Origin: Baffinella frigidus
Taxonomy: Eukaryota > Cryptophyceae > Cryptomonadales > Baffinellaceae
NCBI GenBank assembly: GCA_026770585.1
Contig: MU646694.1
Coordinates: 24,335 to 45,090 of the forward strand
Direction: 5' to 3'
Length of the DNA: 20,756 nucleotides
Numbering within the stretch: position 1 is the first letter of the stretch; every line of letters begins with the position of its first letter. Position numbers and translations under genes: made by a program. Below the pieces are notes generated by a model. The model made no database searches, had not been told where the DNA came from, and saw only the letters and a program-made list of their open reading frames with translations. This document shows positions 200 through 20,756 of the stretch, one piece after another.

Positions 200-1465
200 T
201 GCACGGGAAGCAGTTGTACCGCACATCCCAGCGCCCTCCAACCCATCACCCGACGCCACCGAGCATGGCTAACTGATTCAATAAAGATGCATAAGTAAAT
301 TTACCCATGCTATAGTAATTTCTCCTATGGTTTCTCCTATGAAATCAAGTTTTGGTTTGAAACTCCTCTGGATCACACCAAAGCCGCCGAAGCGCCTTTA
401 CACGAACGCGCAACCTTGGTTGTGGTGAATGCACAGGAAGGGGGTGCATCGCGCGTCCCGAAGTGTTGTATTTATGTTGTGTTTTGTGGTGTTGTGCTGC
501 AAAATGCTGTGATGTAATAAGTTGTGGTGTTTGCTCTGGAAGGAGGTGCACCGCCTTCCAGTGCCAACATTCAGCGCACACACCACAACCGAGGTTGTGT
601 GTTCTTGCAGGGGGTGTACCGCGCATCCCAGCGCCCTCCAACCCATCACCCGACGCCACCGAGTATGGCTAATGGATTTAATAAAGATTCATAAGTAAAT
701 TTACCTATGCAATAGTAATTTCTCCTATGGTTTCTCCTATGAAATCGAGTTTTGGTTTGAAACTCCTCTGGATCACACCAAAGCCACCGAATCGCCTACC
801 CACGAACACGCAACCTCGATTGTGGTGTTTGCACGGGAAGGGGTTGTACCGCGCATCCCGACGTGTTGTGTTTATGTTGCTGTGTGTTGTGTTATGTGTT
901 GTTGTGCTGTAATGTGTTGTGATGTAATGAGTTGTGGTGTATTTGCACTGGAAGGGGATGTTCGCACTGCAAGGGGATGTGGTGTATGCACGGGAAGGGG
1001 TTGTACCGCGCATCCCAGCGCCCTCCAACCCATCACCCGACGCCACCGAGTAGAGTTCAATGATTTAATAAAGATTCATAAGTAAATTTACCTATGCCAT
1101 AGTAATTTCTCCTAATATTTCTCCTATGAAATCAATGGGTTGAAACTCCTCTGGATCACACCAAAGCCGCCGAAGCGCCTACCCACGAACGCGCAACCTC
1201 GATTGTGGTGTTTGCACGGGAAGGGGTTGTATCGCGCATCCCGGCACCCTCCAACCCATCGCCGGACGCCACCGAGTAGAGCTTATTGATTTAATGAAGA
1301 TTCATAAGTAAACTTACCTATGCCGTAGTAATTTTCTTCTACGATTCCCCCGAAACCCCTCTCTCAACCCGAAACGCGAAACCTCGGTTGTGGTTTATGC
1401 ATGGGAAGGGGTTGTACCGCGCATCCCAGCGCCCTCCAACCCATCACCCGACGCCACCGAGTAGA
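200..1465 (-). repeat. tandem array built from exon 29 end plus intron
   Basis: The last 50 bases of exon 29 and its splice donor recur at about 1228-1278, 1003-1052, 610-662 and 214-267. Between them a shared block (about 680-860 against 285-440 and 1066-1220) repeats with few changes. Larger units are about 390-410 bp, smaller ones about 185-220 bp. The copies still read SVASGDGLEGAGMR in the minus frame. Confidence 0.9.
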
Positions 1466-1538
1466 GCGCGCTGGTGGGGCCTGCTGACACCACCACCTTC
1501 TTTGGAGTGGGGAAGAGCGGTTTTCCGCGCACGGTGAC
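1418..1538 (-). CDS. exon 29: end of filamin repeat 3, start of repeat 4
   Basis: Residues 862-902. VTVRGKPLFPTPKKVVVSAG closes repeat 3. PTSALYSVASGDGLEGAGMR opens repeat 4 (S-x-x-x-G-x-G-L). Phase 0 in after gcgtgcag, phase 1 out (ATGCGCG before gtacaa). Four more copies of its last 50 bases lie downstream. No further exon of repeat 4 was found before the window edge. Confidence 0.88.
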
Positions 1539-4500
1539 CTGCACGCGAAACACAGTTGGAACCAAAAAAACTGCAAACGCAACGCAGTTTGAGTGATGTG
1601 GCGTGCGGTGGGGGTACATGTTGTTGCCGGAAGAGCAGTGGAATACTGCTCACCGAGGCATACGGCGAGAGTGTTAACTTTAAGGATTTTCTGGTGAAAT
1701 TTGGTCACGTACCCCCTTGGAATCCAGGCCCAACAAAACCCTCGAATCCCACCATGTGGTAACGTTACCGCAGGACTGCTGTTCGGACAAGTTGGCTCGT
1801 CAAGAGTCCTTGGACTCTCGTTGGAAAAGCTCCCCTCGGGGGAGGAGGTCTTGAACAGAGTTCAAGACCGGGACACTCATTCCCCGAGTAGCGTGCAGGT
1901 GCCTTCAGAGTAGCGTGCAGGCGCCTCCCCCTCTAGCTTTGTCCCACTTAGATCTGGGCTTTCCATAAAAGCGCAAATCCGATGTAGAAATCTCGGCAAC
2001 AGGGAGGGGCACCTGGACGCTGAGCGTCCCGGTCTTGAACGCTGAGTAGAACACCTGTGCGAGTGAACCCCCCGTGTTTAGGGTTGATGGTCGAGTGTTG
2101 AAGGTTTAGGGTTGAGGGCTGAGGGTTGAGGGTTGGGAGTTTGTCACTTTATCAGCACTCCGTCTGCACATGCTTTCAGGGAAAACGAACAACGTTCAAA
2201 CCCGGGTTCTGATTTTTGGAACCATTGCCTGAACCCTAAACCCACATCACGTGGCGCAACCAAACTCGGTGCATTCAACGAGGGTCCCGCCAACTCTCGA
2301 CCCTCACGGTTCAGGATTTAGCGTTCAATGTCCAGAGTTCAGGATTTCGGGTTCGAACCCGTTGAGGGTGTAGGGTTCAACTCGGTACCTCAAACATGCA
2401 CTCCGCACCACATCAGCACTCCGTCGGCACCAGCCCAGGTTCCGGACCGACGACGCTCGAGTTCAGGGTTCAGTTCCCACGGTTTCGGATTTCGGGCTTG
2501 AAAGCGCAAACCCGATGTAGGGGTTAAGGTTCAGGACCTCGAGAGGTTAAGATTCAGGACCTCAAACGCGCTCTCGCGGTATCCCTTCCCAAGCTGGATC
2601 CCGCGCGAAGAGACATCCACGCCCGAGAGTCTCGCGCCGTGCCCACCGTCCTTGAGCGTCTCGAATATCGCGATGGACATCGGGATGTTTGCCGACTCGA
2701 CGAATTCCTGCCGAAGGTGGATACGGTTTGATTGACGAAGAGGAGGGGGGGAGTTTGTTGAGGAAAGGGCTGCACACGTGGATGTTTGGTGTATACACAT
2801 CGTTTTGAACTTCCTGTGATGGGAGTCCCACGCAGGATAGCAGGCACGCCATATGCAGCGTCCTGTCCTACCCACGACCCAAGAGCAGAACACGACACAG
2901 GACACCCAGCCGACAATGCTGGGGAGGGGGTACACACCGAGGCATAGCCGTCCTTGACATCCAACGCCGGGTTCCCGAACCTGCTCCCGGGAGTAGCGAT
3001 GCTTCAGTGGTTCATGCCCCGCACATCTTCATCTGTGAAGCGATGAGTCAGAGGTGCAGACCCCTTACACCCCATACGCTGCTCTTCGATTGTGCGGAAG
3101 GTTTAAGTGGAACAACCAAGCAACAGTCGGACAAATACGAGACCTGTTGCGCAGCACGACATCAAAACTGAACCACTCGAGGCTAGAAATGGGACCATGG
3201 TAAATGTGGGGTTGTTAAATTTAGTACCAGTCACGGGCAGGTTTGGTCACGTTGCTGGGGGAATTCCCCCAGCAACGTGACCAAACGCCCCTCTTTGTGT
3301 GAAAATTAATACACATCTCTTTTTGCCCTTCACTTGTAAAAGATGCTCTGTTTTAAAATGGTCCCATGTCTGGCCTCGAGTGAAACACTTCAGCTTCGTG
3401 CAGAAGACAAGTGTCACCTGAAGGTTCACGTACTACAAACACGCGACCATCAGACAAACGTGTTACAATCGGACAAACAAGTGACAATCGGACAAACACG
3501 TGACACCAAGACACACGTGTGATCATCGGACACTTGAGTGATTCAGGCCCCATCCAACGTGAGATGTGAAGCGATTATTCAGAGGTGCAGACCCCTTACA
3601 ACCGTTCAGCTGCTTTTCGAACCAGCTCAAGGTTCTAGTGCTACAAATAAGTAACATCGGAGGGTGCACCTATCGCGCAGAACGACATCGAAGCTCGCGC
3701 CATCCCCGCACTTGGCCCCCTCCAGCCCCGGACCTTCCGCGAAGCACTTGCTCGGGTCTACCGCACCCGGGACAACGCTCGCCTGCCGAGGGAACAGGAA
3801 ACAACACGCAGGGTGGTTTAGCACACGGCACTAGGCGTTACTGAGAAACATCGATTTCTGTTGATTCCTGCGCCCGGGACAACACTCGCCGGCCGAGAGA
3901 GGAAAGGAGATACACGTCATGTAGTTGAGAAAACACACCTTAGGTAGCACACGGCGTCAGACGTTGCTGACGCGAATCGATGTCCGTTGACTCCTGGTGC
4001 AAATTCACTACACCCAGATGATGAAAATACTTAACGGTTCGGAAGGCGGGTGGAGTGCGTGAGGTCAGTGAGGGGCCTCTCTCTCGCACATCTCGGCTGG
4101 TGGGAAGAAGGTGGAACAAGATAAAAACACGTGTTCATTGCGGATCAAAACCAACATGGCCACCATACGAGAAGGAGGGGCGGAAGGGCGGAGATGGACC
4201 TCAATCGGAGATGTGGCCAGTTCGACACCTCCGACAGTCACCCGCACCTGATCCATTCGTGCATTGTCAATGATAGAAAGCGATTTCTCTACGGGTTCCA
4301 ATTCGACCTCGAACTCCACACATAGACAGAAATTCAAATTATTTCTAGCAATCAAAAGCATACCCACAAATTCAAAGCACGCAAAGAAATAACTCCCGCC
4401 ACGCAATGACAGCAGCCACTCGAGCAAGGACCAAACGCTGCACCGACGCATGTCTGTCGTAAGGCTCATAGACGGCTGACTCACTCATCTCCAGGCTTGA

Positions 4501-7500
4501 GAGTAATAGTAAAAAAAAACAAAAAATGAGTGAGAAAAAAATCCCGTGTGAGCCGACCTCGAGGGACCCGACAACGTCCGGAGAGAAGAAGAAGCGAAGG
4601 CGTCGAGTGTAATAATAAGAAGAAATGGTAATAATGACAAATAAAAACCCAAGAGTATAAGAAGAATAATGAGAAGAAAAACTTGAGAGGAATAATAATA
4701 ACAAAAACAATGAGTTTCGCGTGTGAGTCGACCTCGAGGGAGCCGACAACGTCCGGAGAGAAGAAGAAGCGGAGGCGGCCGTCTTTCTCGACCTCGCTTG
4801 TCACCTTGGGACACGCAACCAAAACACATGATCAGAACGCGATCACACGCCGCACGATCAAACAACGATCAAACGCCACGCAATCACAGCACCAGTTCCC
4901 TTCAGAGGGCCGGTTCGAGAGTGCTCTGCGAATCTGTGGTTCTCCATCCTCCACTGCAGGGTTTGCTAGAGGCATGCCTCTAGTGGTTCTTCACTGCAGA
5001 TGGCGCACGGGAGAGGGAATTACTGTAAAACAAACAGCAGACCGGGACTGCAGAAACCCCAGCCACGTAATCAGTGCATATCCCGAAGAGAGAAGTCGTG
5101 GAACCTTAACGGCGATCTTCGCGCCTTCTTTGGGTTCGATGCTCGCCGTGACCGAGACCTCCCCCGCCTCTCCAGCACCATCAGAACACGATCAAAAACC
5201 GCAAGCTCAAACAACGATCAAACGCCACGCAATCACAGCACCAGTTCACTTCAGAGGGCCGGTTCGAGAGTGCTCTGCGAATCCGTGGTTCTCCATCCTC
5301 CACTGCAGGGTTTGCTAGAGGCATGCCTCTAGTGGTCATTCACTGCAGATGGCGCACGCGACAGGGAATTACTGCCATGCAAACAGCGGACCGGGGTGAC
5401 ATACAACCCATAACATGTACGTGGCCCGAACACCGGGCGGGTAGAACCTTGACGGTGATCTTGGCCCCCTCTTTCGGTTCGATTCTCGCGGAGACCGAGA
5501 CCTCCCCCGCCTCTCCAGTCTTGGGCGCCGCCGTCGCATTCCCTGCAATCACAAAACCCTTGATATGTTTGAGGGTACCGAACCTGATGTTTCGGTGTTC
5601 CGCAGCCGCGTTCCCTGCAGTCACAAAGCCCCTCACCGGTTTAAGGGTGCTCCTGGGTCGGATGGCGCCGTGGGGACGACCACCCTGACACCGGTGAGGG
5701 GTTTTGTCACTGCAAGAAACGCGACGGTGTTTCCTGCATTTGGGACCCCCAATACCAATACGGTATTGGGCAGCCAGCCGTATTGCCGTCGCTTTCCCTG
5801 CAGTCACAAACCATCCATAGAAGCCAGTGTGAGAATAGGTACATGATGGTCGTGGTGGTGTTAACCTCATCAGTTTGAGGGTACCTCTCGGCCGGCCACA
5901 CGAACAACAAACTTTGCTTCGGAGGGCACATGGGTAGTACAACTTCGACACCCCCGACCGGTAGCACTAATACTACACTACTCCTGTATCCAGCGAGATT
6001 CGCGAGCTTTGTAACCTTATCGCCGGCGAAGAATTACCCCCACACACCCTGAACCCTAAACCATCAAACCTCACACGCCCCAAACCGAGGTACAGTGTCT
6101 GAGTTCTCCTCCCCATAAAAAGTTGATGGATGTGAGACCGTTCACGTCGCGACAGCGGTTCTGATCGCGTGCTCCAAGGTGACAAGCGAGGTCGAGTGAA
6201 CCCATACGGAGGCAACCTTCCCAACCTGTTGGCACCCTAAGCCCCTATCACAATGCGGGGGGCCCTACCAACAACGAGGGAGGTTCTTTTGACCGTGGAT
6301 GTCGCGGCAGCGGACCCGGACGGAGGCAACCTCGCCAACCTCGTGACACCAATCGTCGGCGGAGACTTACCCGCACACACCCTCAATCCTCCATCCTGAA
6401 TCCTGAATCCTGAATCCTCAATTCTCAAGCCTCAGGCCTCAAACCTCAAGCCTCAAACCGGTGAACAGCGTCGGAGTTCCCCTGCCCACAATAAAAGAAG
6501 AGCAATACCGTGGATGTCGCGGCAGCGCACCCAGACGGAAGCAACCTCGCCAACCTCGTGAGACCCTAATCCCCTACCACAATGCGGGGAGCCCTACACA
6601 CGACCAAGGTGTGGGGGGGGGGGTTGACCGTGGATGTCGCGGCAGCGCACCCAGACGGAGGCAACCTCGCCAACCTCGTGGCAGCCTGATCCGGACGAGA
6701 AGAGCGCGGATGCTTCCGAGGCCTTTGAGGACACCGCTGCACGCCGCGAGGTTTTCTAAGTTTAAGGTTTACGTTTAAAGGTACCGCCAAGTGTTGAACA
6801 TAGGCCCGCCACACGATCGACAGGCTTTGGTGGCACCGCTGCCTGCCGCGAGGTGGTTACGTTTGTGTGAACTGGGTTGAGTTTGATTCGAGGTAGGTTG
6901 CGTCCCATTCGAATACATACATGGTGAACACGTGGCGGTATGCAGCGGTGTCAGTACATACATGGACCTGATCCTCCCTCACACGGGCTTTCCCCTGATC
7001 CGGGCGAGAAGAACGCGGATGCTTCCGAAGCCTGGGATGACACCGCTGCAGGCCGCGAGGTGTTTCAGTTCGTTTGAACTGGTTTGAGTTTGGTTCGAGT
7101 TAGACCTTTGTAAGTACATACAGGGGACATGTGCGCCGGCCACACGATCGGCAACCTGCAATGCTTCCGAAGCCTTCGATGGCACCACTGCTCGCCGCGA
7201 GGTGGTTACGTTTGTGTAAACTGGTTTGCGTTCGATTTGTGGTAGGTTACGTCCTATTGGAGTACATACCTGGTACCATTGGACCGGCCTCACGATTGTT
7301 AAGCTGCGAAGCGTCGGAGACCTTCGATGACACCGCTGCATACCAATTTTTCAAGTGCAAGGGTGCCGGCGTGCACTTCATTTGCGCAACATCGGGCGAA
7401 GACAGCGGCACATGGTGCGTCCTCCTCCTCTGCGTCCGGGATGAATCAACGCCAGCGAACAGTGGGGTGCCGCGCACAAAACGGCTCATTAAAAGTGGCC

Positions 7501-10500
7501 AGCGAGACAGGAGGGGGCGCACCTGGCTCGAGAGCAAATCAAGAAAAAAAAGGGATACACAATATGCCGTTAAGCGAAAACCGGTGGAGGGGGGTTGCAC
7601 CAGCGGGATGGACGGCGACGCGGAAGGGGCTTCCGTGGATGGGCACGGCACCGAGCGTGACCCAGAGCATCGCCGCCCCCGCCTTCGTGGCAGTGTACGA
7701 CCTGGCGAGAAATCCGAGGTTACTCCGAGGTCACTTCGTGTCTTATATATCATATTTTAATGGGTTCCCGTGGACGGAGACGGCACCCAGCGTGATGTAA
7801 CAACGCAAGGCAGTCACCCCGGACAGTTGGCTTCGGCGTCCGCGTGACCGGTCACGCGGATAGCATCGCTGCCCCCGCCTTCGTGGGGGTGTACGGCCTA
7901 GCCAGGAATCAGAGGTTACTCCTTGGTGACGTCGTGTCGTCTATGAATTGCAAGGGGCTTCCGTGGACGGGGAATGCGCCGAGAGTCACCCATAGCATAG
8001 CCGCCCCCGCCTTCGTGGCCGTGTAAAACCTAGCGAAGAATCCCATGTCACTTCATCAAAAGTTTTAAGTCTTGGCATAGCCTCACTCTTCTTCTTCGGC
8101 GTCTTTACTCTCACGCCTGGAGATGAGTGACCTGTAAGTCTATGAACCTTGAGACAGGCCCAGGTGAGTGATCCGTAAGTCTAGGAGCCTCGAAACAAGT
8201 ACAGTGGGAGTCCTGAACGGCGAACGTTCGAACGGTCACTTTTGACAACCACCCCCTCCAAATCAAGTCTGGTTTCACAAGGAAATCTGTTTGCACGGAT
8301 GAAATCGAATCAAATGGGGTTGGAGCAGGACCCGGAAAAGGAGCCGTCAATGTTGTCAAATCAAATGAGAAAGTGTTGGGGTTTGCACTCTAGTGCACTC
8401 TGAATACTCTACGTGCTACGTGCCTCACTCGAAAACAAATGGGTTGGAGCAGGAAAGCTGAACGAGTTTGCAAGGATCAAATCAAATCAGAGGGGGCTTC
8501 AAATCAAATCAAATGGAGTCAAAACAAATGCGGACCCGGAATAGGAGCCGTCCATGTTGTCGTCGACCTCCACGTTCAAGTGGCAGTCTCCGTCATCCTG
8601 GTATTGAGGATTTAGGGTTTAGGGTTTGGGGTTTGGGGTGTGGGGTGTGGGTTTTGGGGTTTGGGGTTTGGGGTTTGGGGTTTGAAGTTTGGGGTGTGGG
8701 GTTTGGGGTGTGGGGTTTGGGGGGTGGGGGGTGGGGTGTTGGGTGTGGGGTCCAGGGTTCAGAGTTTTGGGTTTGGGGTTGTTTGGGGTTTAGGGTTTAG
8801 AATTTAGGATTTAGGATTTAGGGTTTAGGGTGCAGGGTTCAGGGTGTAGGGCGTAGGTTTGAGGGTTTAGGGTGTAGAGTTTGGGGTTTAGGGTTTAGGG
8901 TTTAGGGTATGGGTATAGGGTATAGGGTATAGGGTATAAGGTTTAGGGTTTAGGGTTTAGGGTTTAGGGTTTAGGATTTTGGGTTGAGAGTTTAGATTTT
9001 AGGGTTTAGGGTTTGGGGTTTAGGGTTTAGGGTTTAGGAACCGTGAAAAGTAGGGCGTCAAACCGATCCCCGCCAGCATCCATTTTGTCCCCCTGCGAAG
9101 AAATGCGTTAAGTTAACTTCCCCAATAAACGTTACAAAATCACACAACGGACCACACAGAGTTCGCGAATAACTCACACGTGCATTAGCCCCAACGACCC
9201 TATGGTAGGCCATTTGTAGGGACACACGGGGTTTTATTCGTAAATCCTAACCGAAACCTGGTTGATATCCAATCAGGTTTCCCTTTGTAGCCCGCGCTGT
9301 GTGGCACGAAACCAGAACCGCAATGTTGACCAAAACCAGAACCACAGTGTTGACTTAATTAGACGGGTAGCAGAGACCTGGGTGTCGATATCCTAACCAA
9401 AACCTGGTTTTCCTCGGATATCAGACCGAACCCTGGTTGATATCCAACCAGATACCCCATCGTAGCCCGCTGTGTTGGGAGACAGGATATACCTGGGTGT
9501 CGCGTGCTTCGATAGAGAACTTGGCCCTCTTCCCGGCAGTGGCCGTCTCGGCCCCGCCCCCTGCCCGCGCCACGAATTTAACCGGCCGAAACGGGGGTAG
9601 ATTATCTTCATTACCCTAAAACCGCGCCACTGCAATATTTTGCTGAGCACGTATGGCTCTGTTGGTTCAGGTTCAGATGATCTCATTATCTCCTCAGGCA
9701 AAGTCTCTTCCACTTTCGAGCGAGAAGGGTCCTACATAAGGGTTCTCAAGATCTGTACATGAACCCAGGTGCGGATTCCGGACCTGGACTTTTAACATTT
9801 TCCGTTTCTGCTCGAGAGCGGTAATGGGCGGCGAGTGGCTCTGTTGGTTCAAGTGATCTCATCATCTCCGCAGGTCAAGTCTCTTCTAGTAAACGTGAAG
9901 ACTATGTGAAGTCTTTTTTGGGCGGCCGACATGTTACGGTAGTTTCAGCGACAGAAGTTCCCCGCAGGGTCGCCATTATCTCCTTTTAGGTTCCTTCATT
10001 ATGAGTCCAGGCTAAAAAGGATGCGCCGGTACTTGTTGGAGTTAGCCGTTCGACTCTTCACGCAGACCCGCGCCCCTGCATTGTTCTGTGGGAGACGATT
10101 TTCAAAAGTCCCCTCGAAGAAGATTTGTGTGAACCGACCTGTGACGGTGGTCTCAGCGGCCGAAGTTCCCCGCAGGAGCGCGACGAGGTGCCTCCGCCCG
10201 CATTCAACTGTCTCCAATTTCTTCTTCCTGAACCATGATAGCTCCGATACCTCCCCCGTAGCGCCTGGTGTTGTTTTTTGGGGTTTAATGTTTTGAGGTT
10301 CGTGCTACAAATTTTGGATTTCGTCCCGAATTTTTCGGGTTTCGTCCTTCAGGTTTCAGGTATAGGCGCCGGCCGCACTCAACTGTCTCCACCTTCTTCT
10401 TTCTGAACCACGACAACTCGCTTACCTCGCCTGTGTCGCCTGGTGTTGGGTCTCAGGCTTTGGGTTTCGGGGTGCGGGTTTCGCGTTTCGGATTTCGTTA

Positions 10501-13500
10501 GTTCGCATTCGACTGTCTCGACTTTCTGCTTTCTGAACCACGATAGCCCCGATACCTCGCCTGTGGCGCCTGGGATCGGAGTTGGGGGTAGGTGATTAAG
10601 GGTTGGGGGTTGGGGTTTGGGGGTTTGGGGTTTGGGGTTTGGGGTTTGGGGTTTGGGGTTTGGGGTTTGGAGTTGGGGGTTGGGGATTGGGTGTTGGGTG
10701 TTGGGTGTTGGGTGTTGGGTGTTGGGGGTTGGGGGTTGGGTGGTGGGAGTTGGGGGTTGAGGGTTGGGGATTGACGGTTGGGGTTGGGGTTTCGTGTTTC
10801 GTGTTTCGGGTTGGTTGGGGTTTCATGTTTCGAATTTCGCGTTTCGTGTTTCGAATTCCGGGGTTCGTGATTCGTGCGTCAGGTGTCGGGTGTCGGGTGG
10901 ATGGAGAGTGACCGCCGTCGCCGATCCCCGCCGTGCCTTCCCCGCTCCCAGACAGCAGCGCCTGCACGCAAGTCCCACGTACGCCGGTTCAGAAAACCCC
11001 GAGCACACCGGAAACTAAACCGGGCATGCACTGGAAACTAAACCGGGCATGCAGATCCCCCGTTCTACAGTTCAGTAACAACCGGGCGCGATGTGCACCA
11101 CACCGGAAACTGCACCGGAAAGGGTGTGTCCCAGGGGATCAGATGGCCATCACTTGTAAGAATCTCGAGTAGTGATCGGTCTCTTCCCTGATCTCACATC
11201 GGACTCTTCGCTCGCAGATGCTGATCTGATCGAAACTCTGATCTGATCTAATCTCAGATCGCATAAAGGGTTCGGGATATTCTCGCACCTTAATCTGCTC
11301 AGAGCTAAGCGCGCCGCCAGAAGGGGAGAGAGCGCTCTCGGGCGATCCCCACGTCAGCGCTTGTCCGTCCGCTGTGACTGCCATAACCTGTTCGTTTTGC
11401 TCGAGAGTGTGAGGGCGCCGAGTGCGAGTGTTCACTTTGAACGCTTGACTGACATCACCTGTGCGTGTGTGTTTGTTCGCGCGTGTCAGAAGCGCTCGCG
11501 TGGGCTCAGGGACTACGACCTTTTTAACGGGAGATGTGTCTGGTAAAAAAATGTCCTGCGTGTTCCACATTCCGATCAGTTCCGTTCAGTATGGAGAGGA
11601 GCGTCCTGTCGTTGATACCCCTCACATGACTTCCAAACCAACAGACCAACTCTACGATTACACCATATGGTAATTACCCTGGTGCATCTTCACCAGCACC
11701 GCAGCGTGGGCTGAAATTTCGATTCGAGTCAATTAAATTAAATTGCACGTGCGGGACAGGACCTGGGACTAGGTGCAGCGGATGAGGTGGACGGAGTTCC
11801 CGTCAAGTGCCGCCAGACCCTCAGGTCGGCGCTCTCACACGCTCGGTATCTTTGACCATGGCCCATCACCGTAGATGGGGTGGCTGGAGCTAGGGCACGT
11901 GCGGGAGAGCAGCCTGACAAGGTTACTAAATGTGAACTGAGCATGGAAGTCCTTTTTGAGATGGTAACAGGAACATCAAGGGGAGAGGACCTGCGACTGG
12001 GTGCAGCGGAGGAGGTGGACAGACTTCCCGTCGAGGGACTTCCAAACCAACAGACCAATTCTACGATTACACCATATGGTAATTACCCTGGTGCATCTTC
12101 ACCAGCACCGCAGCGTGGGCTGAAAATTTTCGAGTCAATTGAATTAAATTGCACGTGCGGGAGAGGACCTGGGATTGGGTGCAGCGGAGGAGGTGGACGG
12201 ACTTCCCGTCAAGTGCGGCGAGGCGCCCGGGCGTGGCGCGCGTTTCGCACTCCTTTGTTGGTATCCCGAGCTGCCCAACGTTGTTCAACCCTGTGGGTAA
12301 TGGGCCCGCCTCAGCTTTGATTTTTTGTTTCAAGTGGACGGGAGGAGGGGAAGTTGGGGGGAGTAGGGAACGCCGGTGATGGGGGGGGGGTGAGTCGACG
12401 ATATCCTTTCAAGTGGATGGGAGGAGGGGAAGTTGGGGGGAGTGGTAAATGGCACTCAGCGGTGCTGGAGCGACAGGGGGAGTCAACAAGATGAGACTCC
12501 TCCATACCGGGGTACGACAGTCGACGGACATAGTCCAATTCGAGGTGGTTGTGGTGTGGGGCGCACCGAAGGCGAAAGCAGCGCGGTTGGCGGAGAGGGC
12601 GAGGGTGAACTGCTTTTGCCAACCTCTTACGTCGCCAGTAAAACGCCCTACACCAGTAAAGATACCAAAAAAAACGCCCTACACCAGTAAAACCGGACGC
12701 CCTGCACCGTACCGAAAGCGAAAGCAGCGCGGTTCGCGGAGAGGGCGAGGGTGAACTCCTCGCCGCACGCGACCATCGCCACCACCTCTCTGCCGAATGT
12801 CGTTGGGTGCGTCTCAGGTCACACACTCCTTCGTGTTTCGGGTTTCGTGGCAGGTTACGGTCACGGGTGTTGCGGAACCGCGTCAAGTCTCGCAACGTAC
12901 TGCAGCCCCACGAGTCGCGGAGTGTTCCCGGTACAACCGGACAATCACAGCGGGAAACGGGACGTTGGCCTCAAACCCGATCAGAACCCAGCGTCCTTAC
13001 CACAACAATCAACGTTTCGGGCCTCGTACCCAATGTGAGCCCCGCCGCACTGCAGAACCACACGTGACGTGAGAACCGAAATCGAACAGTGCTGCCGGTA
13101 TCACAGGGTAATAACAGCTAAAGGGCAGGTGGCCTCTCGTACCCAGAAAGAGCTTCGACGCGCTTAGGCGAAGGGGAATCGGTGCTGTCGCCGTGCCCGA
13201 GCTGTCCGCACGACCCCGATCCGAACGTGTAGAGCGCGCCGGCGTGCGTCACCACCGCGGAGTGCCCTGCATAAGGTCGGTCCTGTGAGACTCGCCCCAT
13301 GGGTCCGATACCGGATGGTGTATTTGTTAACTGCGTACAATCCGTGTTAAAGGATATTGTAATTTTGCAAACCCATAGAGGGAGAACCTGCACCGCACGA
13401 CGTGTACTCACATGATATATCCGAAATGAGGGACCAAGTTTCAGATTTGCCCTGAATTTGAACCCTCACATGGAACATTTTGGGGCATTCAAAAGAGCAC

Positions 13501-16500
13501 CCACGCCGTACGACGCGCGCTGGACCGTAGCTGAGTTTAGAGGGGGGTCGGGAGAGGCCCACGACTCCTAACAACACCAGACAGGTTATGTACCAGAGAG
13601 ATATCCTTCTTGCAACTCGTGGTCCGTAAATCCATCGAGAGGGAACCTGCGCTGCAAGACGCATACGCATACAGTGAATCCAAAACGTCCATCCTAGCTT
13701 CAGGTGTGCCATGGGTTTTAACACGTGCCTGCGCCGCACGACGCGTGCTGGACCGTGGCGCGCCCGGGCAGCCTGATCTCCGTCGGGACCAGCGCATCGC
13801 TCCCGCCGGCCGTTCCACACTGCATTGGGGACGCTTTAAGTTTATGGTTCGACGTCATAAGTTTCAGAAAAAATATATTTTTCTCTCTGCATCATGGAGG
13901 GTTCACGATCTCAGTTAGCACAAGCGCGTCGCCCCCCCCCCGGATGTTCGACACTCAAGGGATGGAGAGGGTGCATTCGAGAGACGCAACAGTTGTGGGT
14001 CACACAATTGACCATCAACGCCTGTCACATTTCTGCCACGCGCGTGAAGCGTGTCCCAAACGCTATTTCCAGATCCACACCAGAATGTGTCGTACGGATG
14101 GGGGTGGGTGGGTCGTGGAGGAATTCCCATACAGGGTTTCACGTCTGATCGTAGAGGGTTTCACGGACCTGACCAGAGCTGTTCAAGCCGCACGCGAGGA
14201 GGGATCCCACCTTGGGTAACAATCAGCGTGTGCCCCGAGGACGTGTCCAGTACTAATTTGTGTGTGCCCCCAGGACGCACCGGTACTAACCCAGGACGCG
14301 CCAGTAGTAACGTGGATCGTGGAGGGTGTCACGGACCTGCCCAGAGCTGTTCCAACCGCACGCGAGGAGCGATCCCGCCTCGGTGACGATCAGCGTGTGC
14401 CCGAAGCCACACGTCGTCGCGAGGATTCTTGTGCCTGCTCGTTGTTGCAAATCGCTTTGTCACACCACAGTCCTCAGTGACGAATCGTATTTACCATAAA
14501 CACGAGCCTTCCCTAGGATCCCGCCTCGGTGACGATCAGCGTGTGTCCAAAGCCACACGTCGTCGCTAGGATCCGCGTGCCTGCACCATGTGGTCGTCAC
14601 TCACACGACGCATTTGCTGGGAACATAAGTCTCTCGGGGTACATACCTGTACTGAGGGGGCGGGTGCGAACCTGAGAGGGCAGCGATGGGAGTAGGCAGC
14701 GCAACCTGGGCCCTCGCGCCATGCCCCAGCTGCCCTGACGCCCCCATCCCCCTGCAACAGGGCAGTTGTTTCAGGTCATTCATTCAAAATCCTTCACGGT
14801 TTCTGTCCGCAGTGTCCCAGCTGATCTGACGCCACCATTCCCCTGCCGCGGTTCCAAGCCATTCACTCAAATTCGCAACAGGTTCTTTCACCAGAGTCCC
14901 AGCTGACCTCACCCCCCCATTCCCCTGCGGCAATGGTTCCAGGCCGTTTGTTCAAAATCCCTCACGGGTTCTTTCCTCAGTGTCCCAGCTGATCTGACGC
15001 CACCACCCCCCTGCGTGAATTGTTCCAGCCCGTGTGTTCAAACAATCTTGCACAGATTCCTTCCTCTCAGACTAGTCGAAACATCCCCCCCCTGCGGCGG
15101 TTCAAGCCCGATCACAGGTCGTCCTTGACAGGTTCGTTGGCAAAGACCGCATTGGCAGAGTAGTTGGCATGCTGATCTGACGCCACCATTCCCCTGCCGC
15201 GGTTCCAAGCCATTCACTCAAAATTCGCAACAGGTTCTTTCACCAGAGTCCCGGTATTGGGCACCGGTAGGCTGTCCTGCTGCTCCCATCCCCCTAGGGG
15301 TAGTTGTTCCAAGTCGTCTGATCAAAAATTATGCACAGGCTCTTTCATCAGTGTCCCAGCTGATATGACGCCCCAATCCCCATGCGGTGGTTCCAGGCCG
15401 ATCACTCGTCATCCTTGATGGGTTTGGGGGGAATCCCCGCGACTACAGGGAAGTTAGCATACGGTATTGGACTACAGTAGGCCCGAAGGCTCCTGGTACC
15501 GGGTTTCTCGACGGAGTGCTAGGCCATACCTTACACCATACATCAATCACATGTTTGCAGGCGTGGCGGGGGGCACAGGCGGACCACACGAAGACCGGTT
15601 GTAACTTCAGAAAAATTAACCCTTTCTGAAATTCAGAACGAAGATCCTAAACCCCCACAGCCACAAACCTAAATTACAAAAACAGAGGCGTGGCGCGCAA
15701 ACCACGAGTAGATCTTCTCCGCTTCAGAGATGAGGGCAGAGTGCGCGCCGCCGCATGCCACATAACCTCTGTATGGAGCCCAGAAAAGTGAAACACCAAA
15801 CCCCTACCCCAAACACCAAACTCGTTTTCAGGGGCATAGGCGGACCATGTGTAGATCTTCCCAGCCTCGGAGATGACGGCAGAGTGGGCACCACCTTAAT
15901 GCCAGAACCTCTGTCTGAAGTCCATACAGAGGAACCCTACACCCCCAAACCCCACACCCCAAACATGTTTCCACAGGCGGAGCGAGGGGTATTGTCGAAC
16001 CACGAATAGATCTTCCCAGTCTCGGAGATGACGGCGGAGTGGGCACCGCCACATGCGACAGAGCGGATGCGCACGCCGAGCAGCGCGCCGAGGAAGACGG
16101 GGCGCGCAACGGGCGTTGTGCCGGAGGTGCCACACTGTGGTGCAGGGCCGGAGTCAGGTCTTGGTGTGTAGAGGATATGTCAACGGAAATGACTATCGGT
16201 TATGGATCTAATTCTGAATCACGTTCGATCCAAACCTCGACTAAATTGAAGCAAACCTCAAGAAAAATGAAATCCACAAGTGACTGGAAGGACAGACCTG
16301 GGAGTACTTGTTTTCGCCCCAGGCGAGGACCTCGCCGCCCTCGGTGACCAGCACCGTGTGCGCCAGCCCGCACGCTAGATCTCTCACCTGCCACAGAGCA
16401 TCCGCCACCCTCCAATTCAGGGACTTGAAGCATTATACGCTGTTGGACTACGGTAAGCCCGAGGGCTCCTAGGACCTCCCAGATCCCGATTCTGCCAGAG

Positions 16501-19500
16501 TGTAGAGGTTATGAGCCCTACGGAAACAATCCGTTTGATACCAACCTGCGGGCCCGCACGCCAGATCCCGTACCTGCAAGAGTGCGCAGGTTGTGGTCCC
16601 TAAGAGTTGAGAGGTGGTGAGCCCTGTGAGAACGACATGTTTGCTAATACCAAGGCCCCCACATTTTTGGTACCGCACGGTACTGAACCATGGCAGGTCT
16701 GAGGACTTTGCGATCCATCCATGACAAGCGCCGGCGCTCACCCACAAGGAAGCTAGCTGGTAGAGCCCTGGAGGAGATTCATCTAGGATGCGAGGTCGAT
16801 AGGGGGGGTGACACCTGGCGCCCGACAGCGCCGTCGAGCTGGGTGGGGGAGGGGTTCCTCGCCCCGACCCGCTCCCCGGTTCCACGCCTCCTCATCAACT
16901 TCACCAGGGAGGTCACATACTTGGTGGGTTGTAGGATCATAGAGCTATTCCGGTAGGACTTGTCGCGTTCTCGAATTCGAGATTTCAAGATTTCAGACTT
17001 CAAAAAGGTTTCAAAGGTCGTAAAACGTTTTAAAATACACCGTTTCAAATCGCATGGTACAAATGAAGTCTGAAATTCTCAAATCCCAAATTCGAAAACG
17101 CGACAAGTCCTACCGGAACAGCTCTACCTGGCGTCCAACAGCGCCGTCGAGCTGCTTGGGGGTGGCGTTGCTGGCCCCGGCGCGCCCCCCGTCCCCGCGC
17201 CCCGTCGCCTCTGCCGCGTAACGCTTCAGCCAACGCCTGAAAATATAAACCGGGTGAAAGGAAGTAGGCGGGGGTTCGGATCGCAACCACCTTGGCAAAT
17301 ATGATACCCTCCCGAGGAGGCCTTGGTTGGCTGGGACTGAGGGTGTACTTGTGAAGACCCTTCACGCCTGGCTACTACTGCATCGAGTAATACAGTCCTT
17401 GAGTCATGTACAAGGCCAGACGCGACGTCGTACAGTCAGCTACAGGGCCGAGAATCCTCAGGTGCCAATCCGAAAAATACAAGCGACCACGCGCTTCACT
17501 CAGGAGGACGGGTGGGAATGGAGCGCGCCTGCAGCGCCCCACGTGTACCCGTAGCTCCTCTGCCGCCGAAGGGTGTAGACAACGGGTTATATTATAAACT
17601 TGATGCGAGAGAAAGTATGCGGGGGTTCGGATCGCAACCAAGACACCCTCCTGAGGAGGCCTTACTTGACTTGGAGGTATGGCACATTTGTTACGCACTA
17701 ATAAGCCTAGCTGCTGGATGGGTGGGTGGGACGGGCGCGCGCCTGTTGCGCCCCACGTGTACGCGCACTGGAACGAACATTACAGTGCCGATATCCCTGA
17801 GGTGCCAATCTGGAAAACCGGAGGTGCCAATCTGGACCGATACCCCTGAGGTGCCAATCTGGAAAACAAAAACGACGGAAAATGCTTCACTTCGGAGTGG
17901 TGTAGGGGGAAGGGCGCGCGCCTGTAGCGCCCCATGTGTAGACGTAGCTCCGTCCCCCGGGGAGGCACAGCTTCTCCGTTTTCTCCAGCTCGACCCGAAC
18001 CTGCAGCGCAGCGCGTCAGAGCAAGCGCCTGCCCTCCATACGGGAGGTGTATTTTTGGAAGTCATCTGGGTTACGATGACTGGCATTCAACTGGCGAGAT
18101 TCCACCGTACACCATCCAGGATTCCGCAATTTTATGGGTATGCAATAAATGGCATCCAGAAAGCGTCAGTGGCGAGGGCGCCAATGCCGCGGCATCGTCC
18201 TCTTCATTCAAATTGGGGTAAAAAAATAAGAAAACTCTAAGTGGAGGGGCGTGCAGGGTGTGGGGTGTAGCGTCAATACCGCGGCATCATCCGGCGTGAG
18301 GGCAAGAGCCTTGCGGAAGCATTCCGTGGCAGCCGCGTGCTTCCCCCCGAGAGTGAGCGCCTGCCCAAGCCTGAAGTACCCCTTCGGCCTGCGAACACGC
18401 CACGCGTTCCCGTCGGTCAGCTGAATCGCGCGGGATTTTCACTGAGGCTGTAAGAGGCGAGACCATCAGTAATACCAACACGGAGGCTGCGTTGCATCCG
18501 TAGCCGACTAACCAACATAACTAGGCGGTGTCGAGCGTCCCGCGCTAGTGGATGTCCGAACCTGAAGTACTCTTTCGGCCTACGAACACGCCGCAGGTTC
18601 CCCGTCAGGTTGGACGGCCTCATTTCGGCGTTAATTTACTTACGGCAATCTGTCAAGTGCTATTGCACGCATAATTCCGGCGTCCAACTAATACGGCCTG
18701 CCCGAGCCTGAAATATCACTCCGGCATGCGAGCACGCCGCGCGTCGCAACATCACTGATTCAGTTGCACATCGCACATGCTATGATAGGCTTTGATTCGT
18801 GGTATTTTAGGGTGGGTGGTGTTATTTCGGTATAAACCCCATGCCTAACATATAATTAACTTCCCCCCAGGTATAAAGTACCCCTTTGGCCTGCGAGCCA
18901 GCCGCGCGTCTCCCGTGCGGCGGTTAGCTAAGCCGCGCTCGGTTTGTACCGGGGATGTACGCGGAGAGATCTTTATGAATACCATCTTAGTTAGTTATCC
19001 TGCAACTCACTAGCATGACTAGGAGAAGTCAAGGGAGAGGGCGTTGGCGGGGAGTGGACCAGGTGGGGGCGAGGGAGACGCAGGAGAGAGCGTCAGAGAC
19101 GGCGAAGCCTGGCTGATTCAGCTTCAGGCGCGCCGCCGATCGGTTCGAGTGCACCGTGTGGTCCTGCACAACACCCTCAGGTGTCAGAACCATCTCGGAG
19201 ATTCCGAAGCAGGCATCGAACCCCGATACTGGCGCATGGTTGCGAGTGCGGGAGAGGGCCTGTGGGGCACGTGGATGCATCTTGTACGCCTGGGATTCGG
19301 CGTGCGGTTCCTAGGTTCATGATCAGCGTGAAGGGTGAAACCTCGGAAGGTCTCTCTAACACACATTCATCCGCCCCGGGAGGGTCCATGGACCTGCGGA
19401 TCGGCATCGAGCGCCTGCGAGTAGATCAGGACCGCGTCGGCGTAGCGTCCAGCCTTGAAGTGCTCGTTGCCCTTGCCCTTGATGTCCCCGCACACGGACA

Positions 19501-19696: not shown

Positions 19697-20756
19697 ATGT
19701 CTCGGCAGGACACGAGGCCCGTGTTTACAAGGATGCTCGCAGGCACTGCGCTCGTGTTGCTGCTGCTGCTGGACGAAGCAGCACCGTTCTCGCTGCTTCC
19801 GCCACCCGGGGCAATGCTCCGCCCCCAGCTCAGCTGCAACACGCCAACTGGGAGGATGCGGCCAGGGCCAGGTGTGCGTGGAGTGGGGATGCTGCTGCTG
19901 AGAAATGATGTGTACGTGGCGGCTGGACGATCTGGGTGGGCGGTTGGAGTTGCACTGGGAGCCGGAGCTATTTCGTTCGCAGAATCCAAGAGGCAGACCG
20001 ATATGATCAAGAGTTGCAGAAATGTGGGGCAGCTTGCGGAGATCGTGTCGGAGTACGTAGAGAGGTTCTCGCACGTCAACGTGAATACTGCGTGGCTCAG
20101 CATGGCCCGGCTTCCGGCAGGGACCCAGGACAAGGAGCTGTCCGTGGCCCTGCAAAACTGCACGCGGAAACTGCTTGGAAAGATGGAAGGACGGCACCTT
20201 GCGAACTTGCTGCACTCGGCAGCGACGCTGCACGTTGCCGGGAGGGCGCGTGCCGACGATGAGTTGGTGCAGCAGCTGGCTTCTCGATCGCTGGAAGTGC
20301 TTCGAACGCAGCCGGGCTCCTTCGACTCTCAGGGTGTTGCGATCACGATGTGGGCGCTGGGGAAGCTTGGTGCGAGGGTGGACCAGGAGCTGGCCACAGC
20401 GATGCAGCGTCAGGCGATCGAGATCGCAGATGACTTCAACGAACAGGGCGTCTCGAACCTGCTGTGGGGGCTTGCGACGCTGGGGGTAGAGGTGGATCCG
20501 CAGCTGGTAACGGTGATGCAGAACCGGGCGATCGAGATCGCAGATGAATTCAACTCGCAGGGCGTCTCGAACCTGTTATGGGCGCTCGCGAAGCTGGGGA
20601 TGGGCGTGTATCCGGCGCTGGCCAAGGCGATGAAGCGTCGGGCGATCGAGATCGCAAATACTTTCAAGCCGCAGGAGGTCTCGAACCTGATGTGGGGGCT
20701 CGCGACGCTGGGGGTGGAGGTGGATCCGCAGCTGGTCACGGTGATGCAGAACCGGG
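19697..20756 (+). CDS. plastid-targeted helical-repeat (OPR/HPR/RAP-like) protein, 3' partial
   Basis: An uninterrupted frame of 353 codons reaches the window end. The ATG is the first after an in-frame TGA at 19682-19684. Residues 13-25 are a hydrophobic run (MLAGTALVLLLLL) followed by DEAAPFSLLPP, which looks like a signal peptide with Phe at or near the cleaved end. That, plus a basic Ser/Pro/Arg stretch after it, suggests the two-part leader used for complex red plastids. A second weakly hydrophobic stretch lies at 81-95. Residues 207-353 carry 38-residue units with the core QGVSNLLWALAKLG, three of them in exact 114-bp register starting at 20414, 20528 and 20642. Such repeats occur in organellar RNA-binding proteins of the OPR, HPR/RAP and FASTK-like groups, so a role in plastid or mitochondrial RNA processing is inferred. 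A C-terminal RAP domain, if present, lies outside the window. No intron is visible, unlike its neighbour. Confidence 0.85.
   Translation, partial: MSRQDTRPVFTRMLAGTALVLLLLLDEAAPFSLLPPPGAMLRPQLSCNTPTGRMRPGPGVRGVGMLLLRNDVYVAAGRSGWAVGVALGAGAISFAESKRQTDMIKSCRNVGQLAEIVSEYVERFSHVNVNTAWLSMARLPAGTQDKELSVALQNCTRKLLGKMEGRHLANLLHSAATLHVAGRARADDELVQQLASRSLEVLRTQPGSFDSQGVAITMWALGKLGARVDQELATAMQRQAIEIADDFNEQGVSNLLWGLATLGVEVDPQLVTVMQNRAIEIADEFNSQGVSNLLWALAKLGMGVYPALAKAMKRRAIEIANTFKPQEVSNLMWGLATLGVEVDPQLVTVMQNR

Follow-up and report, generated by a model that had tools for sequence, protein, structure and literature searches.

Introns lined with copies of their own exon edges in a TPR–RCC1–filamin gene of the cryptophyte Baffinella frigidus

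The DNA analysed here, called the window throughout, is a piece of 20,756 nucleotides (nt) from Baffinella frigidus (assembly GCA_026770585.1, contig MU646694.1, positions 24,335 to 45,090) and represents one stretch of one contig in an assembly of 382 Mb and 1364 contigs. Its minus strand carries a gene with TPR, RCC1 and filamin repeats, all recognised by Pfam, with the ATG start at 19513. We found that most introns of this gene contain copies of an exon edge that borders them, including the splice site, and that within this gene these copies differ from the real edges mainly by silent changes.

We placed 27 exons of the gene, compared with 30 counted in the initial annotation; exons 22, 28 and 30 were left unplaced and the frame links past exon 21 are less certain. 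Exons 1–21 are in frame, with AG acceptors at exons 2–21 and GT or GC donors. The placed exons and the basis of their placement are:

19394–19513, minus: exon 1 (ATG; TPR); relatives' alignment
19060–19163, minus: exon 2 (TPR); relatives' alignment
18280–18388, minus: exon 3 (TPR); relatives' alignment
17922–18000, minus: exon 4 (GC donor); relatives' alignment
17128–17210, minus: exon 5; relatives' alignment
16298–16387, minus: exon 6 (RCC1); relatives' alignment
16001–16134, minus: exon 7 (RCC1); relatives' alignment
14672–14751, minus: exon 8 (RCC1); relatives' alignment
14337–14434, minus: exon 9 (RCC1); relatives' alignment
13729–13819, minus: exon 10 (RCC1, GC donor); relatives' alignment
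13143–13266, minus: exon 11 (RCC1); relatives' alignment
12713–12789, minus: exon 12 (RCC1); relatives' alignment
12169–12290, minus: exon 13 (RCC1); relatives' alignment
11289–11387, minus: exon 14; alignment to one relative
10913–10961, minus: exon 15; gene model and one relative
10139–10264, minus: exon 16; gene model and one relative
9493–9560, minus: exon 17 (filamin); gene model, one relative, Pfam
9042–9092, minus: exon 18 (filamin); gene model, one relative, Pfam
8536–8597, minus: exon 19 (filamin); gene model, one relative, Pfam
7601–7701, minus: exon 20 (filamin); gene model, one relative, Pfam
6629–6736, minus: exon 21; gene model
5448–5542, minus: exon 23 (frame inferred); gene model
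4733–4804, minus: exon 24 (frame inferred); gene model
4169–4247, minus: exon 25 (frame inferred); gene model
3670–3757, minus: exon 26 (edges less certain); gene model
2561–2707, minus: exon 27 (edges less certain); gene model
1418–1544, minus: exon 29 (donor at 1417; by eye, 1538 is the likelier first base); gene model

The exons are very short (median 98 nt), and each kb of coding sequence is interrupted by about 10 introns. GC donors occur in two of the 27 exons, namely 4 and 10. When joined, the first 14 exons encode a protein of 470 residues. Its alignment with seven relatives is ungapped across most of the splice joints of exons 1–13, and exons 14–20 are covered by the protein of one other relative. 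Among the 120 matches listed, the organism-named relative with the best identity is the cryptophyte Guillardia theta (51%); in the same set a plant protein surpasses Guillardia theta on E-value at 29% identity, and closer metagenome proteins reach up to 67% identity over 38% of the query. One relative, P0001 (57% identity), has an uninterrupted reading frame from exon 1 to within exon 11, so ten introns are seemingly absent there unless the entry represents a transcript. Another, P0004 (82% identity), shows at the level of protein comparison 39 extra residues where intron 1 sits, which could be the translation of a retained 117-nt intron. The same protein has an extra stretch within exon 6, which follows one VL and ends with another VL, resembling the gain of an intron whose ends are repeated. 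No viral relatives were found when viral contigs were searched, and the window contains no tRNA genes or Rfam matches at gathering score.

Copies of exon edges were detected in two ways. In the edge test, 40 nt of exon and 15 nt of intron at each edge were scored against the rest of the edge's own intron; controls were 100 dinucleotide-shuffled versions of the intron and the 21 remaining introns. This covered 44 edges of 22 complete introns. We found that 23 of the 44 edges outscore all 100 shuffles and 24 outscore all 21 other introns. At least one significant edge is present in 18 of the 22 introns, which bears out the claim of the initial annotation that introns repeat their adjoining junction. 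A few edges passed narrowly: the exon 17 donor (24, shuffle maximum 20), the exon 18 donor (26, shuffle maximum 24) and the exon 10 acceptor (26, shuffle maximum 23). Introns 1, 6, 11 and 14, which are among the shorter introns (163–353 nt), gave no significant edge in this test. For none of the significant edges was an equal match detected in another of the 22 introns. The copies thus derive from many junctions rather than from one repeat family, as had been proposed. In a DNA search of the whole assembly the exon 7 stretch returned itself alone.

In the second approach, a strict scan, BLAST matches were required to cross the junction, and those reaching fewer than 4–6 nt past it were dropped. 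The scan undercounts, as tandem copies within one match are counted as one. It yielded 37 copies (17 acceptor, 20 donor) of 21 edges in 18 introns by exon number, at distances of 71 to 1198 nt from the real edge. The set includes weak members, namely two of the six exon 29 copies with an exon part of 10 nt and the exon 14 copy. AG is retained in 16 of the 17 acceptor copies and GT or GC in 18 of the 20 donor copies; both copies of the exon 4 donor edge retain GC. None of the 37 copies holds both edges of its exon, the matches ending inside the exon. Seventeen of the 18 edges named beforehand are in the strict set and the remaining one, the exon 10 donor, is significant in the shuffle test; the exon 3, 9 and 19 donors and the exon 14 acceptor are additional. 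Copies are restricted to one side in 13 of 17 exons, in line with the one-sidedness described earlier, and occur on both sides at exons 3, 16, 21 and 23. The proposed decay with distance was not recovered: the Spearman correlation is 0.01 without exon 29 and 0.27 with it, and the better copy of a pair is also the closer one in only 15 of 27 cases. The copies are located as follows:

18553–18984, minus: three copies of the exon 3 acceptor edge (junctions 18890, 18725, 18579)
18178–18200, minus: copy of the exon 3 donor edge; edge test and strict scan
17445–17761, minus: exon 4 donor edge, copied twice and each time with a GC donor (17742, 17528)
16552–16585, minus: copy of the exon 6 acceptor edge; strict scan
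15701–15895, minus: tandem copies of the exon 7 donor edge (unit 155 nt)
14813–15407, minus: at least four copies of the exon 8 acceptor edge (15293, 15193, 14924, 14842)
14517–14584, minus: repeat of the exon 9 start, upstream of exon 9 (acceptor side)
14147–14235, minus: copy of the exon 9 donor edge (exon part gapped)
12562–12614, minus: copy of the exon 12 donor edge; strict scan
11628–12035, minus: two copies of the exon 13 donor edge (11990, 11762); strict scan
11442–11489, minus: weak gapped copy of the exon 14 acceptor edge
10369–10573, minus: copies of the exon 16 acceptor edge
9926–9968, minus: copy of the exon 16 donor edge; strict scan
8302–8357, minus: copy of the exon 19 donor edge; strict scan
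7862–8052, minus: two copies of the exon 20 acceptor edge (8029, 7897)
6825–7274, minus: copies of the exon 21 acceptor edge (7187, 7045, 6838); strict scan
6200–6348, minus: copy of the exon 21 donor edge; further repeat at 6507–6572
5600–5810, minus: two copies of the exon 23 acceptor edge (5797, 5614); strict scan
4900–5175, minus: copy of the exon 23 donor edge, inside a 343-nt head-to-tail duplication
4496–4602, minus: copy of the exon 24 donor edge; strict scan
3002–3169, minus: copy of the exon 26 donor edge; strict scan
189–1282, minus: array of six copies of the exon 29 donor edge (two with 10 nt of exon part)
6926–6952, plus: inverted copy of the exon 21 acceptor edge (weak, E-value 0.03)
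6158–6196, plus: inverted copy of the exon 24 acceptor edge, 1.3 kb away
5699–5727, plus: inverted copy of the exon 23 acceptor edge

At several arrays the head-to-tail layout is clear, with units of 343 nt at exon 23 (345-nt match), 155 nt at exon 7 (210-nt match) and 82–86 nt at exon 8. Other copies are spaced or nested.

We then compared the exon parts of the copies with the real edges codon by codon. Changes at the first, second and third codon position amount to 33 of 443, 17 of 435 and 100 of 437. Classified by effect in 35 of the 37 copies, the gapped copies of the exon 9 donor and the exon 14 acceptor edge being excluded, there are 92 synonymous changes versus 46 missense and stop changes. 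If the exon is frozen and the copy drifts, silent divergence should equal the neutral distance of the pair, and non-silent changes should reach half of it. The observed ratio of non-synonymous to synonymous divergence (dN/dS) is 0.19 (bootstrap over edges 0.15–0.23), compared with 0.5 expected under this null model, and the ratio of dN to intron divergence is 0.31 (0.23–0.41), again compared with 0.5. A simulation of simple decay gave a silent share of 0.42; the observed share of 0.67 was never reached in 400 runs. Plain decay fits in the simulation only if the exon side mutates about 3–4 times faster than the copies. Since the differences are mostly silent, the copies in this gene look unlike the simple decayed leftovers that the initial annotation had seen in them. 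Either the copies exchanged sequence with functional versions, or they are in occasional use, or this gene is exceptional in its excess.

In the set of 35 copies, the comparison of real edges with copies gives rates of 0.075, 0.037 and 0.230 for the three codon positions. Copies compared with each other give 0.163, 0.158 and 0.282 (without exon 29), numbers too few to decide, and many of their second-position changes stem from exon 8 copies of copies. Three gap openings are found in 1318 exon-part columns and 93 in 2727 intron-part columns, a comparison affected by the preference of local alignment for short ungapped parts. Stops make up 3 of 44 non-silent codon changes, where about 5% are expected under a random mix, and the missense spectrum is indistinguishable from random (p = 0.145). 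Three copies carry stops and two carry gaps. The stops and the random-like missense changes suggest that the copies have the status of junk now. As a source of the third-position changes we also considered CpG and base composition; this was rejected, as 32 of 86 A/T third positions are changed, compared with 3 of 189 A/T second positions. A separate signal of splice-site preservation was likewise discarded: the sites are conserved in every one of the 21 long alignments (p = 0.002), yet there is no significant excess over internal AG or GT (Fisher p = 0.60).

In order to assess how many junction copies local duplication would produce, we carried out simulations with real exon lengths, starting introns of 80–200 nt and the observed unit lengths, which derive from the copies themselves; events leaving the coding sequence intact were kept. 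Simulated duplications touch 13.5–15.5 of 40 edges on average (standard deviation 2.3–3.0). In the same 40 edges we observed 15 with a strict copy and 21 by the shuffle test. Among accepted simulated events 41–50% span a junction. Short exons and short ancestral introns would thus lead one to expect many junction copies anyway. Intron length correlates with copy number (Spearman 0.85, 20 introns).

The pattern extends beyond this locus, which answers the concern that it might be limited to it. A second RCC1 gene on another contig (L011, C302) carries the same kind of exon-edge copies. At one of its exons, two copies of the acceptor side lie upstream (134 and 208 nt) and one of the donor side lies 345 nt downstream; another has acceptor-side copies at 100, 200 and 300 nt as well as one donor-side copy, and a third has two donor-side copies. 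Of the copies at 100, 200 and 300 nt, two follow CCTAAACC and one follows ACTAACCC, which resembles the heptamer arrays of the window. Applied to ten exon cores, the edge test gave significance for 6 of 19 edges, five of them in the second RCC1 gene; eight cores were negative or had no test on at least one side. Elsewhere in the genome 20 further stretches were sampled, of which seven consist of N only and 13 had readable sequence. Local repeats at most 700 nt apart cover 12–30% of 12 of these 13 stretches (N counted in the length), and 52% and 34% of two 10-kb parts of the window. No such repeats were found in the thirteenth stretch, which has little readable sequence. A 3-base rhythm in the local repeats is weak, with 6 of 59 matches in the window (3 expected), 4 of 24 in stretch L010 and 0–2 in each of the other eleven stretches.

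We tentatively favour an explanation that combines splicing-hidden local duplication across exon edges with a phase of sequence exchange and later drift. A gene with very short exons would repeatedly gain local duplications of roughly 70–530 nt. Where a duplication spans an exon–intron edge, the protein would remain unchanged while the splice site at the exon body stays in use, so that the duplication could survive and the intron would grow. Duplications within exons or over whole exons would mostly be lost, presumably through selection. The outcome would be introns lined with partial exon edges bearing their own GT/GC or AG. In a second step, which we infer, many copies in this gene would have traded sequence with working versions of their edge, either ahead of their arrival in the intron or later, through conversion or unequal exchange involving diverged alleles or related copies. 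Such exchange would leave a good part of the copy divergence silent. After this phase the copies would drift as junk. Of these elements, the copies, their local placement, their relation to intron length and the silent excess in this gene are observations; the sites actually spliced, the loss of other duplications to selection, the exchange and the alleles are deduced.

Several results weigh against this explanation. Silent divergence (0.29) exceeds the divergence of the intron parts (0.175), which exchange alone does not predict. In the exon 29 array (189–1463) the exon part shows 6 changes in 209 positions and the intron part 88 in 399 (22%); the near-unchanged exon parts suggest local conversion. 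The inverted copies are not tandem duplicates, and with three of them tandem duplication alone cannot account for every copy. The earlier proposal of intron growth by local tandem duplication therefore stands as far as the locality of the copies, the own junction repeated in each affected intron and the link to intron length are concerned, and falls short for the inverted copies. The 21 of 40 edges found by the shuffle test lie 2.1–2.8 standard deviations above the simulated means. Furthermore, the exon-touching share of local repeats is 0.64 (29 of 45), compared with at most 0.62 in 100 decay simulations (means 0.32–0.44, with parameters of our own choice); ten of the remaining 16 repeats are, by reading, pairs of copies within the same arrays. 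Random duplication alone is thus insufficient, and junction copies are somewhat over-represented among detectable local repeats. The second RCC1 gene shows 18 silent versus 17 non-silent codon changes after one probably intronic match was dropped (19 versus 21 with it). This fits plain decay (p = 0.18 for a silent share of 0.42, the value derived from the window's codons), and the silent share falls short of the window's value (p = 0.04, or 0.009 when the dropped match is included). The silent excess consequently rests on one gene. Finally, the DNA search of the 382-Mb assembly gave no second version of the exon 7 stretch; the diverged alleles or paralogs that would be the source of exchange are thus not seen.

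If the copies were still used, as alternative exon ends, mini-exons or swapped edges spliced at some rate, selection would retain their amino acids and splice sites. The low dN/dS in this gene, the splice dinucleotides retained in 34 of 37 copies, the scarcity of gap openings in the exon parts and the over-representation of exon-touching repeats are consistent with use. The same holds for the finding that 28 of the 34 copies with a usable splice dinucleotide have a partner site of compatible phase no more than 60 nt away, a count without a chance estimate, and for a duplicate in potato that was spliced in as extra coding sequence (PMC4974935). However, the absence of copies with both exon edges, the random-like stops and missense changes and splice dinucleotides retained no better than internal AG or GT point the other way, as does the second gene with its lack of silent excess. 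In addition, six of the 34 copies, among which are the exon 24 donor and exon 16 copies despite their good conservation, have no compatible partner site within 60 nt, and we consider continued use rather unlikely. A different reading regards the introns as holding spare exon ends under coding selection, returnable by recombination or splicing, and thus as a reservoir of alternative edges and not junk. If this were true, the head-to-tail arrangement of many copies with the real edge would mean that recombination or splicing could restore a spare edge, keeping the copies readable; we judge this to be unlikely. Neutral tandem duplication of the same edge followed by decay in place, as proposed in the initial annotation, agrees with the locality and head-to-tail layout, with the strict-edge count of the simulation and with the codon counts of the second gene. 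The ratio of exon-part to intron-part divergence of 0.49 (0.41–0.59, gaps counted, without exon 29) is also what a frozen exon and a drifting copy predict. The strong silent excess in this gene, with the faster exon mutation that decay would require, speaks against it, and we consider it a rather improbable account.

An assembly artefact in which diverged haplotypes or strains were strung together would explain silent differences along with intact splice sites. It is hard to reconcile with the stops and gaps in the copies, tandem units as short as those at exon 8, the large contigs with a single exon 7 stretch, and the same pattern on another contig, and we regard it as highly improbable. Birth of the introns from a mobile introner element or by exon duplication of the AGGT type would suit the very high intron density, the inverted-repeat element with 63-nt arms a few bases inside intron 5 and the continuous reading frame of the relative P0001. 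It appears very unlikely, as within the set of 22 introns significant edges match their own intron alone. In addition, a comparison over the 22 introns, of intron starts with the next exon and intron ends with the previous exon, led us to reject AGGT birth: own means (10.3 and 11.1) are no higher than the others (11.0 and 11.3).

Mutually exclusive tandem exons are whole exons with both splice sites; they resemble the present case in placing extra exon sequence in an intron and differ from it in that only one edge is copied here. Introners share one sequence among many genes. Each affected intron here repeats its own junction and, among the 22 introns compared, no other, so identity with introners fails, although both represent repeated material with splice sites inside introns (PMC9860276). 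The AGGT (Rogers) model of intron gain resembles our case in that duplication yields ready-made splice sites; it predicts intron ends similar to the far edges of the neighbouring exons (PMC3443670). In the RNA-dependent RNA polymerase (RdRp) gene of potato, a tandem duplication over an intron–exon boundary gave rise to a new spliced intron, supported by RNA reads, and as in our gene the duplicated stretch spans an exon edge with its splice signals (PMC4974935). The potato case is one event with splicing shown, whereas here 37 copies of 21 edges lie inside introns and are known from sequence alone. Internal gene duplications of about 0.1 kb are frequent in introns and exons, and at most 17% of genes in six genomes carry any internal duplication (Gao and Lynch 2009, as cited in PMC7969005). 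These are per-gene rates, in contrast to the 18 of 22 introns affected in one gene here. With such precedents for boundary-crossing and internal duplications (PMC4974935, PMC7969005), the remark in the initial annotation that no standard description exists was too strong. The single boundary-crossing duplication is of a known kind; density and the silent-change excess are what is distinctive here. A gene-wide array of edge copies was not found among the literature matches listed, which comprised open-licence papers.

The growth of most introns in this gene can be traced to edge-straddling duplications that splicing would hide, and the copies bring working-looking splice sites with them. If the pattern is genome-wide, this alga would offer a natural experiment for asking how a genuine edge is distinguished by the spliceosome from a very similar copy. 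If the silent excess holds in other genes, coding pieces inside introns may have a coding history, which is unexpected of junk.

The window contains further elements. An inverted repeat at 16940–17126 (63-nt arms, 89%, 61 nt between them) lies in intron 5 almost at the exon 5 donor and looks like a small DNA element. A second inverted-repeat element at 3174–3382 has 31-nt arms (87%) and encloses a perfect palindrome of 23+23 nt at 3241–3286. Arrays of 7-nt units are located in intron 18 (8607–9038; AGGGTTT, telomere-like) and in intron 15 (10581–10876; GTTGGGG and GTTTCGT). A divergent neighbour gene on the plus strand (19697–20756) encodes a 38-residue repeat (114-nt unit; LMWGLATLGV...). By reading, its leader resembles a plastid-targeting signal, and Pfam returned a sub-threshold HEAT-like match only.

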